The notes beneath the pieces were generated by a model, which had not been told where the DNA came from, did no database searches, and saw nothing but the letters and a program-made list of their open reading frames with translations. This document shows, piece by piece, positions 2,739-57,016 of a stretch of 64,000 nt of DNA. The position numbers and the translations under genes are program-made. The DNA comes from Heterotrichella gracilis (lineage: Eukaryota > Sar > Xanthophyceae > Tribonematales > Xanthonemataceae): positions 1 to 64,000 of the forward strand of contig JAULBX010019854.1 of the NCBI GenBank assembly GCA_032358255.1. Reading direction: 5' to 3'. The first letter of the stretch is position 1, and each line of letters starts with the position of its first letter.

Positions 2739-3501
2739 TCACCGGATGTCCAGCTCTTGCTGCAGTTCAGCCACGACTGCCACTACTAGGTGCCTGTTCT
2801 CCAGTGGCGCTTTCCGGATGCACAACCCAAACAGGCGCCGTAGGCGGAAGTCATCAAAGATCCCGTAGGTGATGATTTCTGACATGAGTGCGCTCTTGAT
2901 GGCTGAGTAGCTGGTCTTGCACAGGAAAGCAAATTCAGGGGTGGGGGTAGGCTTGGGGGAGGCCATCGACGCAGGCAAGTGACCTGGAGTTGCGCACACA
3001 CAAGCATGCTTAAGCAATCGTTACCACGCATTCGGTCAAGGCCTTGTTTTTTTCCGAAGAGGCTAAACAGGGTGGAATCCAGTCCATACCTGAATGCCGC
3101 ACTTGCTGCAGTCTGTCAGGTGCACGAGTTGTGTTGCTGCGCGTGCTGAGCGCTCTGCAAGGCCGTGACCGGTGGTGGCTGATGTCTTTGGAGGCTGTAC
3201 TGGGTCTCCGTAAAGAGTTTGTGCAACTACATTGGTTGGAGGATGCCTGCCTGTCTAGACAAGCTTGGTGCTTGCGCTGCAGTAAAGATTTCCTGTCCAG
3301 TTCCGCTATTCGCCGGTACATGTGATACAAATTGCTGAGGTGGTTGAGGCTGGTTGTGTCTGTAGTAGCCTTACGAGCTGCCCTGATGATATAAAAGACA
3401 GTATGTATCAGTCTGTGCAGGTGGCTGTACAACCTGTGGGACAAAAACAGCTCATGCATATGTGCGGTTGCGTTTCCAAGGCGTGAAGACGCGCTTTGCA
3501 T
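2739..3501 (-). CDS. Possible SPATA7-like ciliary protein (C-terminal part)
   Basis: The last exon (about 2983-2739) encodes a segment reading SALMSEIITYGIFDDFRLRR and then LFGLCIRKAPLENRHL, ending VVAELQQELDIR and stop. This resembles the conserved SPATA7 block, in which a helix leading to an I-x-x-G-L/I-F-x-x-x-x-L-x-x-L-F pattern is followed by a short helix and a hydrophobic-charged tail. Upstream, 3501-3010 is open in one frame with a helical piece (HMYRRIAELDRKSLLQRKH) that could match the SPATA7 N-terminal helix, but introns there are not fixed. SPATA7 is a ciliary transition-zone protein in animals with homologues in ciliated protists. The match is short and judged by eye from memory of the family pattern, so the name is tentative. 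A ciliary role would agree with the DNAAF5 gene at 58-62.5 kb. Confidence 0.38.
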
Positions 3502-5026
3502 CCTGATTGTTGTTACCTGTTCCTTGATAGGCGACTGGGATTGTGGTTGTGCTCTTCAGTTGAGGAGACATCGCATAGTGCCCTATGTCTCTGGACACGT
3601 TCCATATCCTATACCAGTACAAGTGCACTATCCAGTGAGCTGTTGACCTAGCCAGGGCTTTAATAGGCTCGTCCCCATCCAAGCACAAAATGCAGTCCTC
3701 ACCTGTTTGCCTGGCTTTGGCGGCATGTTGTGCTTGCTGTGGTAAAGTGCAGGTTACTGCACTGTAGCAGCCTCCCTTGAGTCAGCTGCTTTTGCTGGTC
3801 GCACCCAGTTGCAATTTTTTCAATGTGCGTGACCAGGGTGCGTGACCAGGCTAGCGACGCTATTTGCAGTATGCGTGCCAAGCAGCAGAGGAGCTTCTAA
3901 TTTTCTGCTCAATGGAGTGGTGTAGTTGTGGTTGGACCAGCCCTCTAGCTGTGCGCCTTGCACAAGGTGTGGAGAAAGCTGCTGCACGTCCAACTGCAGG
4001 CTGTCGAGTTGGGCGGCATGCACCGCATGCAGACACCGTTACGGTGACCGCAAACAGGGTCTGTACTAAACAGCCAACAGCATCTATGTATATCTTGCAG
4101 CAAAACAAGGGCTTTGCACTTCACGATGGTGAACCCAACCGTTGTAAATTGCGGCGATGAAAAAGCCGCCTCCCGCCGAAAACGGTGGTCGACGGTCGGT
4201 GGACGGTGGTTTCCGCACAGGCGGGCGGTGCCTAGGGTGCAAAATTCTGAGTTTGTTGTAGCGTCAAAGGCCTATCAAATAGCCAGACGAGCATACACTC
4301 CAGAACTCTATCCCACCAGCAAATGAACATTGGACGCTCTCAAACAGGCGGTTTCCGTTCCTTCATCCGCCCACCGGTCACCCGCACTTCACCATCTCGC
4401 TCGGACACCCTAGCCTGCTCAGAGAAACCCCAAGCAACTGTATACTGGTGCGTTGGGCGGCAATGCCGTATATCACGCATAGGAAGGTGTTTATGTTTGC
4501 TAGGGCTTGTTGTCGCGTGTTCAGGTCCACAGTCTAGCGGTCAGTTGCTGCACTGCCATCAAAGTTGGGCATGCAATGCGGGGGAATATGCAACAGGTTG
4601 GCCTGTGGCAGCCTCCCTCTCGCCATATGAAGGGCCCGCTAGTTTTACACTTTCTTCCTATCATACCTATACATAAATTGCCTATGCTTCTTGAAACTGC
4701 GGCTGTGAAACGCTCTGCAACACAGTTTGCGGCATACCGGTGCACCAATGATTGTGGGCGACAGGGCTACGTGCCGAAGGGAGAATTGCACGTGGTACTG
4801 CAAAGGTTCCAAAGCCGCCGCACAGTAACATTGATTTACATTGCACCTTAAAGTCCACACTAGCAGTTTCAAGTGAGTCTCAAGCTTTGGTCATCGCCCA
4901 AGTGTTTTAGTGTCGTTCAACTTATTGGGTGCTGGCCAACTAGGGTTATAAATCCAGATCCCTGTTCACACGGCCTGATCTTGCCGTAGGTTCGGCCAAA
5001 GCTTGTGTTCAAGTTCAAGTGCCACG
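3502..5026. other. Intergenic region upstream of the alternative oxidase gene
   Basis: No gene resolved. Several open frames of 60-120 codons exist on both strands, but none has splice-supported continuation or recognisable protein features. It presumably contains the alternative oxidase promoter at its right end. Confidence 0.4.
4945..4954 (+). promoter_or_regulatory. TATA-like element of the alternative oxidase gene
   Basis: GTTATAAATC lies about 75-80 bases before the ATG at 5027, a plausible distance for a core promoter with a short 5' leader. Nothing else confirms it. Confidence 0.3.
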
Positions 5027-7761
5027 ATGCTGCGAGCCCTCGCAAGATCGACAGCTGGCTCGGCCCTGTCGCGGATGGCCTTCCATGCGCCAGGAAGCTT
5101 GGGGCCTGTTACTAAGGCAACAGCAGCGTTGGAGCAGCTTGGCGCTGCCAACTATACGCCAGTGGTAGTCAGGCTGTTCAGCACGGTACGTAAACGTGTG
5201 TTGACTAGGTGACCACCAACAGGTAGCAGGCTGGCAGGAGGCACCCACCTCTCCTTTCGAGACCCTTGCCCTTAGTCATCATTACTAGGGTATCAGCTTT
5301 AGGGCATAGGGTCTGCGCACAAGGTGCCGCACCGTGGGCCATGGGAAGGGGGGAAGTGCATGGGTGCAGCGTCTCCCTTGATGCCTCAATACAGCACACT
5401 CTTCCTTTCTCAATAAACGCCTCTCCACATGGCGACTACCACTACAACTTACACCCCCCCTATAATATCAAGGCGCACCATGAAACCTTTGGCTCACGGT
5501 ACTGTCCCTTGACCTGCAGCACCAGAAGGCAGCTGCAGAGGCAGCACCCATGGCGGAGGAGGCTCCTGTGCTCCCGGCGGCAGACCATGGCAAGAAGTTT
5601 GGCGATGATGGCTTTGTGGCCATGCACGGGGGCCTCCAGCAGAGCACAGCCCACCCCGAATCCTACTGGCTGATGCAGCCTGTGTACAGCAAGGAGTACA
5701 TCGAGTCCATTGTCCCAACACACAAGCCACCTGTCAAGGTAGGTGTTTAGCAGTTGCCAACCGCTGCCCCCTGCCCTGCCCTGCCCTGCGCTGCAATTAT
5801 TGGCCAGTTCTGGTTCTGCCGTTTTCTGCTTCTGAAACCTTACCCTCCATTGTGATATACCTGTGCGGCCTATAAAGGGCGCTTTTGCCATGACCCAAGG
5901 TGAAACTCAGCACTTCTCACAGGGGCAGAATGTCAGGCATGCTGTTGACAACATTATGTCTGTGTATGCTTTTTGTGTCATCGTGCTCTTAACAACGCGT
6001 CATGCTGCTTCTGCCTAGCACTCCTAACACCGCTCCCACCCCGTGTTGCAGCTAAATGAGAAGATTGGCTTCCACGCCATCCAGGCGGTGCGCAGGACAT
6101 TTGACTACTTCACAAATTACGGCCCCAACATGAAGGAGTCGGACTGGCTGCGCCGCATCATCTTTCTGGAGACAGTGGCAGGCGTGCCCGGCATGGTGGG
6201 AGGCATGCTCCGACATATGAGGTGACGACTGGGACACACCGTAGATCCTGCTTTCCTGCTGCCCTATTTGCCACAGTCTGTCCAGCAGCACATTGTTTTT
6301 AACTTTTTTTTTTAAATTTGTGCACTATGGCTGCAATGATTGTGTACAGTTGGAATGAAAATATATCTGGCACTTTCTTGGCTGGAACAAATTTCCCTGA
6401 CTGTGTGCCGTACACACTTCAACTCTGGGATAATTGGCATGCTGGATCATTGGCAAGCACAAACAAAAATATATCTGGCATCCATAGCCTTACTGACCTG
6501 CACAACCCCTTCCTTCACAGGTCTCTTCGCAGCATGAAGCGCGACAACGGGTGGATCCACACGCTGCTGGAGGAGGCCGAGAATGAGCGCATGCACCTGC
6601 TCACGTTCCTGCAGATGCGCCAGCCGGGGCTCATCTTCCGCAGCATGGTGCTGGTGGGACAGGTGGGGGAAGTCATGTAGGAATAATGAATTTCAGTAGG
6701 CCACTGTGCAACAAGGCAAAATGCCAGTCGAATTGCATTGAGAAGTGTTGCCACTCAGTGGGGGGCGCGTCCACCTTGGCATGGCATGCAAGTTGGCCGC
6801 CTCAGTGAATACGTAATGCTTGCATTGCATGCACAATGCTTCACCCATGGGCTCACCAGATTGCATACTTGTGTTGTACACCTGGGCGCAAGGACGGACG
6901 TGGACTGCAGTATGATTTTAATCGGAAGCAAAAACATCCCTATTTTATGAGCATGGTACCAGAAGGTTGATGAATACATTTTCAATTAAGTGTTTTGACA
7001 TGCCCTTCTGTTCCTCCCCGTCCAGGGCGTCTTCTTCAACGCCTACATGCTTGCCTACATCCTTTCCCCAAAGACCTGCCATGCAGCGGTTGGGTACCTT
7101 GAGGAGGAGGCCGTGAAGACCTACACCCATGCAATCAAGGACCTGGAGGAGGGCAAGCTGAAGGAGTGGACAAACAGGGAGGTGAGTGGTTGCCGCCAGC
7201 AGACTCGTTGGATGCTGCATCTAGTGTAGGACTGCTTGCTTTCAGGGTCATTAGTATTTGTTAGTCCCAGCATTTGCTGCCAGGCTTGAACATGCGGCGC
7301 AAGCAGTTGTGTCTTGACACTGTGTGCACCATCTGTTAATCTCATGCATGTAACTTGGACAGCTCATGCCACAGTGGCCCTGGGCCTAGCTATGCATTAC
7401 GAAGGCACCTTGAGCACAGGAATATGGTATACGACAGTGGAATTGAATGCACATTTCAACGAGCAGCAGTGATGCTGAGCAGTGTTGCAATGGCTGCGCC
7501 CATTGCTGCTGGAACAACGATGTTGGATGCCTTGCACTTGTGTGGCTCTCTGGCAGCAAGGTGGTCATTGTTGCTGTGCATGTACAGGTTCCGGTGATCG
7601 CCAAGCGCTATTGGAAGCTGGAGGATGATGCCACCATGAGGGACCTGCTGCTGGTGGTGCGTGCTGACGAGGCATGCCACAGCCACGTCAACCATGTGTT
7701 CTCTGAGATGAAGGCCGATGAGACAAATCCCTTTGCACCAGGCTCTACACTGGTGCACTGA
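5027..7761 (+). CDS. AOX1: Mitochondrial alternative oxidase
   Basis: This encodes the ubiquinol oxidase of the inner mitochondrial membrane (matrix side), which reduces oxygen to water and bypasses complexes III and IV. Six exons: 5027-5185, 5520-5738, 6052-6221, 6521-6662, 7026-7181, 7588-7761; phases agree and give 339 residues. The first exon supplies an Arg/Ala/Ser-rich targeting peptide ending VVVRLFST. The core is complete: the conserved entry [20 protein letters not shown], then all six di-iron ligands, in [10 protein letters not shown] (Glu), [11 protein letters not shown] (Glu, Glu-x-x-His), LEEEAVKTY (Glu) and [11 protein letters not shown] (Glu-x-x-His). Between targeting peptide and core, no cysteine is visible that would match the redox-regulatory CysI of land-plant enzymes, as expected for algal forms. 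The start is the only ATG giving a presequence. The identification is very secure. Confidence 0.97.
6357..6480. repeat. Spaced direct repeat in alternative oxidase intron 3
   Basis: The phrase AAAATATATCTGGCA occurs at about 6357-6372 and again at 6465-6480, 108 bases apart, both inside the intron between 6222 and 6520. It looks like a small decayed tandem duplication. Confidence 0.55.
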
Positions 7762-22855: not shown

Positions 22856-23521
22856 CTTGTGAAAGTATAGCGAGGGAAGGCGGCGATGCAATGTGCTGGG
22901 CGAATTGCTACTGCTTGCAGCCACTACAAACAAAGCTGCCGAGCTTTTCGACTAACACTGTTACGCAGTCTGGGTTGCTAGTAGCTCTGTTAAGCTCGCA
23001 GTCGTGGGTCTTTTAACTGCACTTGACAATAGAGTGGCTGGCATGGGAGTAGCAACTTTTTTAGCGGCAGTTTGTGAGCAGGTAATATTGTTGAGGGATA
23101 TACAGAGGCAGATACACTTGTTTCCATGCACGTTGTTCACTGACTGTTCCTAGTACGCACACTGGCTGTTAACTCTAGTGGGTTGTTTTTGTATTGCCAA
23201 CTTTTGCATGCATGCATATACGCAACTGGTGAAGGACTTGACTCCAAGTGGGCCGAACCTGACTCCACTAGTTCCAAAATCTTACCATTTTGTGTATCAA
23301 GCACAAGCATTTATTTGGTGTGACAGTGGAGTCCGCATATGTATTGGCGATTGCAGGGCTGGTGAAGTGGGAACACTAAACACTAAGTCACTTTGCAAGG
23401 AGTTATGTGTATGTGGGGATTCCGCTCAAGCTAGGCTTACCCCAGTTGTATTTTGTATCCGGTGAGCCTTGCGCACCCTGAAGCGAACTTCGCATGACAG
23501 AGCATTAGGCAAGTAGCACCA
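22856..23521. promoter_or_regulatory. Divergent intergenic region between helicase and WW-domain genes
   Basis: The two genes start about 667 bases apart and face away from each other, so this stretch must hold both promoters. It contains CATGCATG near 23208. I see no clear TATA element. Confidence 0.4.
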
Positions 23522-50196: not shown

Positions 50197-50256
50197 GGCT
50201 TCGACACCTCACTCCGGCTTCGACACCTCACTCCGGCTTCGACACCTCACTCCGGC
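50197..50256. repeat. 19-base tandem array
   Basis: GGCTTCGACACCTCACTCC is repeated three times head to tail, with a degenerate fourth copy at about 50298-50313 after a related spacer. Confidence 0.9.
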
Positions 50257-50817: not shown

Positions 50818-53800
50818 TCAGGTGACGCCGAGCACAATGAACACCACCATGCACACCACATAGGTAATGATGAACACGTAGCGCAAAACGTAGTCAACCA
50901 GCTTTGCCACCAGCTTCCATCCCCGATTGTACTCTGTTTGGACCGCTTCGTGGAAGTTCCTGCATGCAGCAATAAAAAATGACTATTGGCAGTGATCACG
51001 AACATTCATGATAAGCCAGTGTGCCAGCCTATGGCCACAGGAAAAGCTATATGGCCCCTGTGCGATTTTTTCATTCATTGCAGTGATACGAATGGCGATT
51101 TGGGCAAGCACGTTGCCTTTCAAGCATAACTTTCCAGTGGGGTTATCAATGCTGTGCGGCACGCCGCGGCGCTGGTGCCATATCCACTCACCTGGGATCA
51201 GGGCCGCTGTAAACATCCCCGTCTGCTTCCCTGAGAACCCCCATTGCCCGCAGCTCGTGATCTGTTCTCCCAGAGGTAATCCCGACTGCCTGCCTGTCCA
51301 ACCCCAGGATGACAAGCAACCGCGCAGCCAGGTGCTCCATGCGATAGTGCTTGAGAGCGTTTTCAACCGCTCGCCTCACAGCGCGCATGAGTGGGTAACT
51401 GGAGTAAAGGATTTCCTGCGGCATGATTTCAGCCAAATTCCAGTGAATCATCCATGCATAACCCTTAAAAGGGCTCGTAATAATGCCAATCTGTACCACA
51501 ATTTGGTGGTACCCGCACAGCGGCGCACACACAGTTGATTAAAAAGTCCAGAGTGAGGCAACAAATTTATGGCAAATAGGCCCACCTCCAGCAGATGCCT
51601 CATTTTCACGACATCCGAAGCCGCAAAGACATCCTGAAAAGCTTTCATTGCAGGGTCTGGTGGTTCCATACGCTTCTTGGATCCCTGTGGACTTGATTCC
51701 TGGAAGCCATATGTCATCATTGATAAAAAATAGTAACACAATGTACAAACCCAGCCCTGATGAAAGGTCTGCAGAATGAATGCCACCTGGAATTTCAAGG
51801 CATACTGTTGACCAATATCGTAGACAGACAAATAAAATGTGAAACATGCTATCACACATTAGCAAATATCTGATGTTGTGGGGTTCCTTAAAACGGTTGA
51901 TTTGAATGCCCTTGCCATGTTGAGCCTCCCAAGCTGGGTGCCTATTGCTTTGAACCGCTGGCGAGGATTGGTACTGCTTGTGGGTGGCAAAGTACCGGTG
52001 TCAGATGCAACCGATTCAGTGGCTGTTGGTGCACCACCATTGGGACTGACTGGATGGCCAACATGGGAAGGAGCTGCTTTGCCAAAAGACTCTGCAATGG
52101 CCTTCTCAGAAGAGGCAGGGTAGTCAGTAACTGAGTTCACTTCAATTACTGATTCCTCTCGCATTGTCGGCAGGGTTGCGCTGATGTCATCCTGCACAAG
52201 AGCAGTAGCCCCACTCCTCAAGTTGTCCCACAGCATTATGCACTGTGCCATGTACCGCATGGATGCAAATGCACTAATGCAACATTAGACACTTATAAAT
52301 TATAATCCATATTAAAAGATGTGGAACACCTAGACCACTGAATCTCTCACCTCCTGAGCCTGTCCTCGCCAACATTGCCAGCGCCTGCGCCGGCGGACCT
52401 TTCTGGAGCTCTTGTCCACACTGTCTCGTTGTGTGACCTGCTGCTCCACCATGCGCATCTCCAGGTAGACAAGGAGCTTGGTCCAGTCTGATTGCTCCAC
52501 ATACAGGCGCCATGTGTCACCGACTGAGCGTGCACTGAACCTGCAAACATGTGAGGAAAGTTGCAGAATCTGGCCATAAAAAGACATGAGCATTCCACAC
52601 ACTGTACACGAAGTACTCCATGTAGATCCTGCACATGCACAGGACATATCCTATCCCCTATGCACGCATTCTCAGTACAGAAGATGGCAAGCTCTCTCCA
52701 CATGCAGGATCCAGCCAGAACGTGGTAAAGCCAATGGCAGTAAGAATGGCCTGCAGTGCGTGGAAGCAGACATCAGGGAGGTGACACCTAAATTGTGGCA
52801 CCTAAATTGTAGGTACCGAGGCAGTCCCAGAACATCTAGGCCAGGTTTGCTTTTGAAAATCAGTATACAAACAACTGCAATAAAAAGCTTGCCAAAGTGA
52901 TACCTGCGGTACCAGGATCTTCACAGCATACAGCACAGACGCCCGCTGCACTGAGACGCTGTACCACAACACCGGCCAGTAGGAATCATCAGGGCAGCAT
53001 GGATATGCTGGATACTCGTGGCGGGTCACATTCACGCTGCGGATCCTACAGCACACAGGGCCATGTTGGGTAACGCACATCAGGATGTCTGCTACAGGAC
53101 AAAGGTGGCCAGCACACAATGAGATTGCAGCAAATTAATTAGAAACTGGCTGCATGCAATCCAGCAAAACCGCCGCATTAGCAGTGAGCTTTGCAAAGCG
53201 GCACCAAGCAGAATTGTGGCAAATCCTTGATGCCACAAGTGCATTTTGTGGTCGGAGGCGTACGTGTATTCATCATATTCTGGCGATGAGCTTGTGATCT
53301 GACTGCCCCCAAGGGAATAGCCTGCACCATTGGCATGTAGCTGCACATAGCGGGGGCTGTACACCCAGTCGCCAAATTCAAGTGAGAAAGTTATCCGCCC
53401 GAATGGGAAAGTCTTCAACCCATTCAGGTCACAAGCGGCCACCACAGGGCCATTCCTTGACCAGCCGATGGTGCCATCCGAGCTAACTTGAGTGCCATGG
53501 TTGTCAAGCTGGTTGGTGAGGCTCTGGACCCCATTCCACAGGGTGATCTGAGGGATCCAGATATCCAAGTCCCCCCTGCACGTGCAATATACATTGCAGC
53601 CAGATAGTATCATGTTCCAATAGTAATTTCCAGACTGCAGCATGACATCTGGGTGGCTATACTGGCATGCATGCACATGGAGCAGAGATGATGCCACTTA
53701 CGCAGTTCCATCACTGGAAAAGAACCACATCCTGCTTATTCCTCCCCATTCTGATTCGTTCCATGTCAGCCTTGGGTCTTGCCACGCCAAGCGAAACCAA

Positions 53801-54596
53801 ACCAGTACCGTGACTTGGCCCTGCACGCAAGGTAGATGTTGCCAACAATTCCATGGAACCTGAATTGAATAGAGCCGCCAATCAATGCATGCATTCAATG
53901 CAAATGAACCTCGATCCTTTTGCTCACGGGCAGAATGTAATTTGAATATACTGCCAGTGAGATTCAATACATTGCGAAGTCTCCCAAGCCCACAATGTAC
54001 CAATCTCATTGACTGACAATGCAAAGGTGCACAGCACCGAATTGCCAGAAACGTACTACTAGCATTAGCAGTAATGGCCCACCTGTAGCAGGTCTACTGC
54101 TATGATCTTCTGGAATGCTATCGTCAGGGTCACATCCGCAGGTCCGCCTGAAGCCCTGTAAGGCCAGTCAAACTTCTCATAGCCATCCAGGAGGTACTCC
54201 TGCAGCTGTGTCTCCACAGTCTTGGTGCCAGGAGACAGCCCCCCTGCAGAAAATGGTGTACCTTACCAATATAGGCTAGGCACCAAATCATCCGAGGCGC
54301 TGTTGCTTGTGGCATGAGGCGCCAGGCCTAGCTTGAATTTGAAAGGCATAGAACCGCCCTGTAGAATTTTCAGCTATGAAAGAATGCAAAGTGTAGCTGA
54401 CAACACCAAGCCAACCTGACACATTCTGCGGTGAAGACGGCGCCTGGAGCAGCGCCCTGCCCTTGGATGATTGAGCGGCTGCCTCCCTGGCAGAGCAGCC
54501 AGTCTCCGCTTGTGGGTACCTAGTGCGGGGTGGTCCTCCCTCCCAATACTGCTGCTGCTGCTGCTGCTGCTGCAGTGTCTTGAGCCTTGGTGGCAA
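50818..54596 (-). CDS. Pentameric ligand-gated ion channel (nicotinic/pro-loop type), pore region not found
   Basis: Exons readable on the minus strand: 54596-54416 (Gln run and disordered leader), 54243-54083, 53859-53702, 53575-53264, 53045-52904, 52750 to about 52680, about 52544-52341, 52191 to about 51890, about 51711-51588, about 51418-51194, and about 50962-50818. The extracellular domain is clear: LQEYLLDGYEKFDWP, VWFRLAWQDPRLTWNESEWG, LDIWIPQITLWN, CDLNGLKTFPFGRITFSLEF then GDWVYS, and loop C YPAYPCCPDDSYW. M1 follows (YAVKILVPQ + AILTAIGFTTFWLDPACGES), and M4 closes the gene (LVDYVLRYVFIITYVVCMVV). Between them lies a long Arg/Ser-rich cytoplasmic part. The Cys-loop lacks its second Cys. 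I cannot find M2 and M3: after GES-LPSSVL the frame reaches a stop, and only about 135 bases separate it from the next exon. The gene may be broken, misassembled or divergent. No secretion signal is visible in exon 1, so a 5' exon may be missing. Confidence 0.82.
54548..54573 (-). repeat. CAG repeat encoding glutamines
   Basis: About eight CTG units (CAG on the coding strand) lie in the first exon assigned to the ligand-gated channel gene and encode a Gln run. Confidence 0.85.
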
Positions 54597-56027: not shown

Positions 56028-57016
56028 ATGGAAGCCACGCTGAGAGCACAAACAGGGCAAGGCGCTCTAGCAAACCGGCAAGCAGTTGCAGGAGAGGGAT
56101 CGCAAAACCCAGGTACTTATTCGACCCAAACCTTTCTGGCGGCGTGGAACACCCAAGGCTTGACAGGATGTAACCAAGCCCCGTTGAAGGCAACCTAGTT
56201 GTTTTGGTAGGTGTTCACGCTTTTTCCCTGGTCCAGGTGCTCATGACGCAAGCTTGAATGACTACCAGAGCCTTCTTGCGCTTGCGCGCTCGCAAGGGGC
56301 TATTGGCCAGAACCGGGGCGCCTGCAAGCGTTGTGGACAGATAGGCCACCTGACCAAACAATGTATGAACCACTTGTCCATACACTACAAGGACCCAACT
56401 CAGGTATGTGCAAGGCACGCTGCTGCGCGTTGCAGCTACTTGTGCATCCTACCAATAAGAGTTTATCTATAAATACCGTAGTTACCAAGAAAGACTCCCA
56501 AGGACCAGCCTGTTCCAGACCATTTTACCTTAATGCCACCAGCCCTACCAACTCTCACCTAGGCCAGCGTTGCAATGTATGGTTCTCAGTGCCTGAGCTG
56601 ACTCGGAAGTGTGGTTTGGCTATGGATTGCCAGTACGTTGCTTGCCACTGCGCGTGTTCAGTCACTCGTTTTTCTGTTTTATTTCTCTTAGGTTGTCACC
56701 TTTACAATCACTGCCCATGCTGTAGGGTGGTCTGGAACCTGTGAAAGCTGCTGCGGCTGCATCAGATGTATCATCCGATCTCAGCAGTGATTCAGACAGC
56801 AGCACCAGCACCAGCAGCTCTGACCGCAAGCATAAGAAGGGCAAGGACAAGAAAAGGAAGCACACCTCGTCTGGGAAAAAGCACAAGGTGGAGAAGAAGC
56901 ACAAGAAGCACAAAAAGGAAAAGCGGCATAAGAGCGAGCACAAGCACAAGAAATCACACCGGCAAAGCAAAGACAAAAAGGCTCGGCATGGGAAATCGGG
57001 GTCAGGTTCAGATTGA
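56028..57016 (+). CDS. CXIP4-like CCHC zinc-knuckle protein
   Basis: Three exons, 56028-56112, 56237-56403 and 56726-57016, join in phase to give 180 residues. Exon 2 carries the block DYQSLLALARSQGAIGQNRG followed by a CCHC knuckle, CKRCGQIGHLTKQCMN, which matches plant CXIP4 and animal SREK1IP1-type proteins. Exon 3 starts GGLEPVKAAAAASDVSSD, passes through a Ser/Asp run, and ends in a Lys/His/Arg-rich tail (KKHKVEKKHKKHKKEKRHKS) that should be a nuclear signal and RNA-binding tail. Such proteins are nuclear and linked to splicing; the Arabidopsis member was found as a partner of the CAX1 exchanger. The open frame continues upstream of the ATG to an acceptor at about 55978, so a further 5' exon with the usual N-terminus may exist and the true start may be earlier. 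Confidence 0.85.

Follow-up and report, generated by a model that had tools for sequence, protein, structure and literature searches.

A vicinal pair of cysteines in loop C is taken as the mark of animal acetylcholine-binding subunits. Among algae, a Cys-loop channel of Chlamydomonas reinhardtii, a green-algal pentameric ligand-gated channel (pLGIC), was reportedly described by Mukherjee in 2015 and modelled on the Torpedo receptor. The article by Jaiteh et al. (2016, PMC4795631) records pLGICs in chlorophytes and both Cys-less and Cys-loop genes in protists, places two Cys-less ciliate genes within the cation-type clade, and gives the Asp of the FPxD motif as present in 93% of 561 sequences; the word 'vicinal' is absent from its main text. 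An algal pLGIC is already a known kind of gene. In the accessible parts of the open-licence literature searched (including PMC4795631, PMC11085791, PMC8634148 and PMC13232294), a nicotinic loop C with a full aromatic box was not met outside animals.

The receptor gene described here lies on the minus strand, at 54243-50818 of a 64,000-nucleotide stretch of DNA from the alga Heterotrichella gracilis (contig JAULBX010019854.1), which as a whole is referred to as the window. The original prediction, made from the letters of this stretch, was an acetylcholine-type binding site on a pro-loop channel scaffold of the prokaryotic kind, in a host labelled, putatively, a green alga.

Locus, exon layout and host genome

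The receptor gene is split by introns, the splice sites of which were read in the sequence, and the most 5' exon modelled is E2. The features are the following.

54083..54243, minus strand: exon E2, N-terminal helix and first strands (GLSPGTKTVETQLQEYLLDGYEKFDWPYRASGGPADVTLTIAFQKIIAVDLLQ); AG before, GT after, open frame
53702..53820, minus strand: exon E3, loop D Trp (VLVWFRLAWQD); AG/GT, phase matching both neighbours, alignment with nicotinic rows
53264..53575, minus strand: exon E4, loop A (TLWNG), loop E stretch, Cys-loop stretch (CDLNGLKTFPFGRITF) and loop B (GDWVYS); open frame, splice reading
52904..53045, minus strand: exon E5, loop C, pre-M1 Arg and start of M1 (IRSVNVTRHEYPAYPCCPDDSYWPVLWYSVSVQRASVLYAVKILVPQ); open frame, splice reading
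52979..53005, minus strand: loop C motif YPCCPDDSY; read directly and compared with prokaryotic and animal rows
52694..52750, minus strand: exon E6, remainder of M1 (AILTAIGFTTFWLDPACGE), 3' end uncertain; phase matching E5, alignment with nAChR M1
52541..52693, minus strand: 153 bases at the expected place of M2-M3; three frames, none like M2 or M3
52351..52540, minus strand: exon E7, basic and hydrophilic stretch of the inner loop; acceptor GTTTGCAG, no donor that keeps the frame found upstream of it
51895..52242, minus strand: exon E8, low-complexity inner loop; phase fits, donor GTTTTA weak
51586..51699, minus strand: exon E9, inner loop; splice reading
51192..51415, minus strand: exon E10, inner loop, likely helical ahead of M4; splice reading
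50818..50959, minus strand: exon E11, M4-like hydrophobic end (WKLVAKLVDYVLRYVFIITYVVCMVVFIVLGVT) and stop; direct reading

As assembled, the gene encodes the binding domain and M1, followed by a long inner loop and then an M4-like end, with exons E2-E6 accounting for a 263-residue piece. Exon E4 has an alternative candidate donor about 24 bases downstream; when the unspliced genome was searched with the Pfam profile of the pLGIC ligand-binding domain (PF02931), the match fell within this exon, at 53317-53571 (E 5.3e-9). A Pfam scan of the E7-E11 translation gave no match, and the end of exon E11 resembles, as judged by eye, the M4-like stretch of a second pLGIC gene found on contig C346 of the same assembly. 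Downstream of the receptor gene, at about 50197-50256 of the window, a unit of 19-20 bases (CTTCGACACCTCACTCCGG) occurs three times in tandem. A neighbouring gene on the opposite strand (56188-57016, plus strand) encodes a zinc-knuckle-like stretch (CKRCGQIGHLTKQC) followed by a Lys/His-rich stretch, and may resemble splicing-factor-associated proteins.

Pfam matches were obtained for four of the ten window ORFs scanned, namely two phytoene synthase pieces, a VTT domain and a CLPTM1-like piece. The phytoene synthase exons (PF00494; 37739-39530, minus strand) lie about 11 kb from the receptor gene and speak for a host of the plastid type that makes carotenoids. In tetranucleotide profile, seven stretches of the window correlated at 0.80-0.91 with four stretches taken from contigs C346 and C85, and at 0.27-0.44 with two taken from contig C331. 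Both the phytoene synthase exons and the tetranucleotide make-up, which is like that of C346 and C85, uphold the earlier statement that the contig is not of animal origin.

The PF02931 search of the 68.5-Mb assembly returned a single place, the receptor gene itself; this is not a census, because other pLGIC genes that it missed were found by a transmembrane query. One of them, at about 3252-7087 of the piece C346:17000-26000, is an intron-bearing pLGIC gene with FPFD and an M4-like stretch, in which the profile picks out M1-M2 and M3; its likely loop C exon contains, by eye, no CC. The other intron-bearing gene, at about 3935-6272 of the piece C85:94000-103900, has FPFD and M1-M3 by profile, with an intron directly after M1 (LDKQSLGER) and M2-M3 in the following exon; its counterpart of the loop C exon was not identified for sure. 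The 596-kb contig C331 (36% GC) has a foreign tetranucleotide profile and carries a bacterial-looking pLGIC frame, and because this frame is uninterrupted and looks bacterial, the assembly seems to include bacterial contigs.

Binding-site residues of the ligand-binding domain

The match of the spliced domain to PF02931 spans positions 1-214 of the 216 in the profile (E 4.1e-32; 111.8 bits with a cut-off of 26), well outside what chance would give, which bears out the claim of a near-complete pLGIC extracellular domain. Loop C, YPCCPDDSY, has the vicinal cysteines and the two flanking tyrosines of nAChR alpha-type subunits, and its spacing, Y-x-C-C-x4-Y, is nicotinic, as had been claimed, and equals that of Torpedo alpha1, the corresponding spacing in alpha3, alpha7, ACR-23 and AChBP being x3. 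The tryptophans of loop B (GDWVYS, at FPx+12 as in nAChR) and loop D (VWFRLAW) were likewise correctly recognised, and both stand in open frames. Loop A carries a Trp (TLWNG) at the position where nicotinic rows carry Tyr, a residue that the first reading had overlooked. Inspection of the aromatic box (Tyr A, Trp B, Tyr C1, Tyr C2 and Trp D in nicotinic receptors), which had been proposed as a check, found aromatic residues at all five positions; the two loop C residues were taken from the motif because the loop C columns of the alignment are unreliable. As far as the sequence can tell, it is clear that the domain combines a complete nicotinic-type aromatic box with vicinal loop C cysteines. 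The alignment also shows the Pro that is invariant in the FPxD loop, as well as the pre-M1 Arg (SVQR).

The loop that names the family departs from its canonical form. Cys1 is shifted by one residue relative to FPF and the position of Cys2 is occupied by Phe, so that the two cysteines 13 residues apart typical of Cys-loop receptors are not found and no canonical disulfide can form; the single out-of-register Cys had been described in the original prediction, and rightly so. The FPxD motif reads FPFG, whereas Asp stands at this position in 82 of the 86 aligned rows and Gly in two, including the algal gene.

Prokaryotic sequences for comparison came from 88 loci, gathered by a GLIC/ELIC scan (35 loci) and by a PF02931 search, which gave matches in 12/12 chosen genomes and, among genomes of sampled phyla, in 1/400, 7/398, 11/294, 1/301, 15/367 and 9/196; the samples of 400 and 301 genomes seem to cover one phylum, as their first match-less genomes are the same. 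These loci yielded 80 distinct sequences, some of them partial or doubtful. Between FPxD and the pre-M1 Arg neither CC nor even two Cys was found in any of the 80, and the tryptophans of loop B and loop D were each absent from all 78 prokaryotic sequences compared; loop A carried Tyr in five and Phe in 21 of these. A count of aromatic residues over five columns (at most three of five in the 78 rows) was set aside because the loop C columns are misaligned even in nicotinic rows, and loops A, B and D alone were used.

Placement among animal and prokaryotic channels

A database search had been suggested as a way of finding whether the exons belong to another family. Among PDB sequences, 22 distinct entries matched at E <= 1e-15, all of them nicotinic subunits or the betaine receptor ACR-23, and the match extends to residue 263, i.e. 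into M1 of exon E6. In phmmer comparisons with the algal domain, five nicotinic-family rows scored 63.5-71.0 bits, 5-HT3A 44.2 and AChBP 36.1, the best of the 80 prokaryotic sequences reached 33.8 bits, and three anion-type rows scored 18.1, 28.5 and 31.6, one prokaryotic row thus standing above all three. GLIC and ELIC gave no phmmer match at E <= 10. Identity to the algal domain is 26-28% at best.

Three trees were calculated, all from the binding domain and M1, with one algal gene, animal and prokaryotic rows and no other protist rows; the C346 and C85 genes were excluded because their gene models are incomplete. The 59-row tree groups the alga with seven animal cation-type rows (100/98) and separates animals and alga from prokaryotes (98/93). 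The corresponding supports were 99/97 and 97/92 when loop C and eight long rows were left out, and 100/98 and 98/96 for the corrected sequence under another aligner setting with loop C removed. An AU test rejected a grouping of the ten animal rows without the alga (p 0.025). The AU tests, the first two trees and the counts of CC and of Trp in loops B and D were made with a query containing an extra Thr (EYTTIR for EYTIR) and an extra N-terminal Gly; Pfam, PDB and phmmer scores and one tree were rerun on the corrected sequence (EYTIR), and the results agree.

Both score and tree position show the binding domain, on the sequences compared, to belong with the cation-type Cys-loop receptors of animals (nAChR, 5-HT3, AChBP). 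The trees with animal and bacterial channels, a check that had been proposed, support membership in the superfamily, in each case within the cation-type clade, and do not support a prokaryote-like grouping or the scaffold reading based on it. Since scores and trees place the domain in this way, the missing disulfide looks secondary, and the tree suggests that the Cys-loop disulfide and the FPxD Asp were both lost secondarily. The absence of a Cys-loop disulfide alone does not mark a prokaryote-like channel.

The alga does not branch within the nAChR rows, and in all three trees, with weak support, it falls outside all seven animal cation rows; this position is likely but not firm, because the grouping of the seven rows without the alga received 98/81, 94/64 and 93/34. 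The algal branch is long (1.58, 1.32 and 1.43 in the three trees, about 1.3-1.6). Of the stretches returned by alignment scans for relatives, eight from GTDB genomes and 23 from viral contigs, none was confirmed, nor was the one stretch that a protein scan of viral contigs returned; the non-animal eukaryotic relatives obtained were the two other genes of the same genome and none besides.

The missing pore and the nature of the gene

Of the four transmembrane segments, the assembled locus has M1 and the M4-like end, without the M2 pore helix, and because M2-M3 are absent no pore is shown for the algal gene; the original prediction had overlooked this absence. A pore profile (M1-M3, built from 78 prokaryotic sequences) detected no M2-M3 elsewhere: its highest score was 5.4 bits, at 22956, in the window translated in six frames, and 4.5 bits in contig bases 64001-81214. 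The two other intron-bearing pLGIC genes of the genome scored, with their best pieces, 30.6 and 26.6 bits against the identical profile. In its three frames the 153-base stretch between M1 and the next exon was no more like M2 or M3 than shuffles were, and an nAChR beta2 M1-M3 query, run without a positive control, found nothing in the genome. The sequence GESLPSS after M1, resembling GDLLPSS of the C85 gene, was considered as a relic of the M2-M3 linker and rejected, as 345 of 1000 shuffles scored equally high with an M3 profile. The absence of M2-M3 fits a gap in the assembly, and it fits the loss of an exon or a recent lesion as well. An exon missing from the assembly is the most likely of these, because the reading frames are open on both sides of the gap, for about 263 codons before it and 338 after it.

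By a small measure, we consider it probable that the gene encodes an algal pLGIC subunit with a cation-type domain and a nicotinic-type site, belonging to a presumptive amine-gated cation receptor, whose M2-M3 exon is missing from the assembly. Five such subunits would most likely form a membrane receptor, and the putative ligand, a small cationic amine such as acetylcholine, choline or betaine, would sit in the box between subunits; loop C would close over the bound amine and a cation pore would open.

A pseudogene is rather unlikely but deserves to be taken seriously; the M2-M3 exon of a nicotinic-like channel gene would have been lost recently and the remainder would be in decay. This reading agrees with the missing M2-M3, with the failure to find any GT donor that connects E6, the M1 exon, in frame with the strong acceptor at 52540, with FPFG in place of FPxD, with a gene model that begins at E2 without a start exon and with the weak donor after E8; however, the codons on either side of the gap are open, and GT/AG and phases fit at the other modelled junctions.

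That the closest scores all come from animal nicotinic-family rows, and that the placement outside the animal cation rows is weakly supported, would also suit a transfer of the domain from an animal to the alga, by which the loop C cysteines would become uninformative on the age of the site. Such a transfer appears improbable, as an AU test of the alga placed with the five nicotinic rows speaks weakly against it (p 0.038), and a recent event is opposed by the low identity (26-28%), the many introns and the host-like tetranucleotide make-up.

Twelve GT-AG joins across the gap keep the frame by using other, weaker acceptors, and the binding-site residues are retained with the coupling Asp gone, as might be found in a pore-less membrane sensor consisting of binding domain, M1, inner loop and M4, an anchored counterpart in kind of the soluble acetylcholine-binding protein; but the strong acceptor would be unusable in frame and we know of no such sensor, which leaves this reading quite improbable. 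Hardly credible is a prokaryote-like pro-loop channel with a loop C made nicotinic-like by convergence, for although the disulfide is missing and the C346 and C85 genes are matched by a profile that is mostly prokaryotic, the phmmer scores, three trees (of which two leave out loop C), the loop B and D tryptophans (each 0/78 in prokaryotic sequences) and a PF02931 match from profile position 1, compared with 4 at the earliest in prokaryotic matches, all stand against it.

It may tentatively be proposed, as a possibility we rate below even, that the ancestor of the algal gene and of all animal cation-type receptors had a nicotinic site with vicinal-Cys loop C and full box, that the site is older than animals, and that lineages including that of 5-HT3 later lost the Cys pair. 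If an algal gene with nicotinic loop C and box does lie outside the animal cation receptors sampled, the nicotinic site would predate nervous systems, and its age could be tested by expressing the algal domain. The suggestion that the gene bears on how the nicotinic site arose thus stands as a lead, of which the single gene, the long branch and the missing pore are the weak points.

Among known systems, the Cys-less and cation-type pLGICs of protists and chlorophytes (PMC4795631) are, by their description in that article, like the algal gene in kind of gene and of host. The prokaryotic pLGICs (GLIC, ELIC and their kin) have in common with it the fold family of the superfamily and the lack of a Cys-loop disulfide, but differ in CC (0/80), in the tryptophans of loop B (0/78) and loop D (0/78) and in their best score of 33.8 bits. 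In comparison with nAChR subunits and the Caenorhabditis elegans betaine receptor ACR-23, outside which it branches in the trees, the alga is without the Cys-loop disulfide, has FPFG for FPxD and a loop A Trp for Tyr, and lacks M2-M3 as assembled; it shares with them the loop B and loop D tryptophans, the two loop C tyrosines, the vicinal cysteines, the pre-M1 Arg and the M1 Pro.
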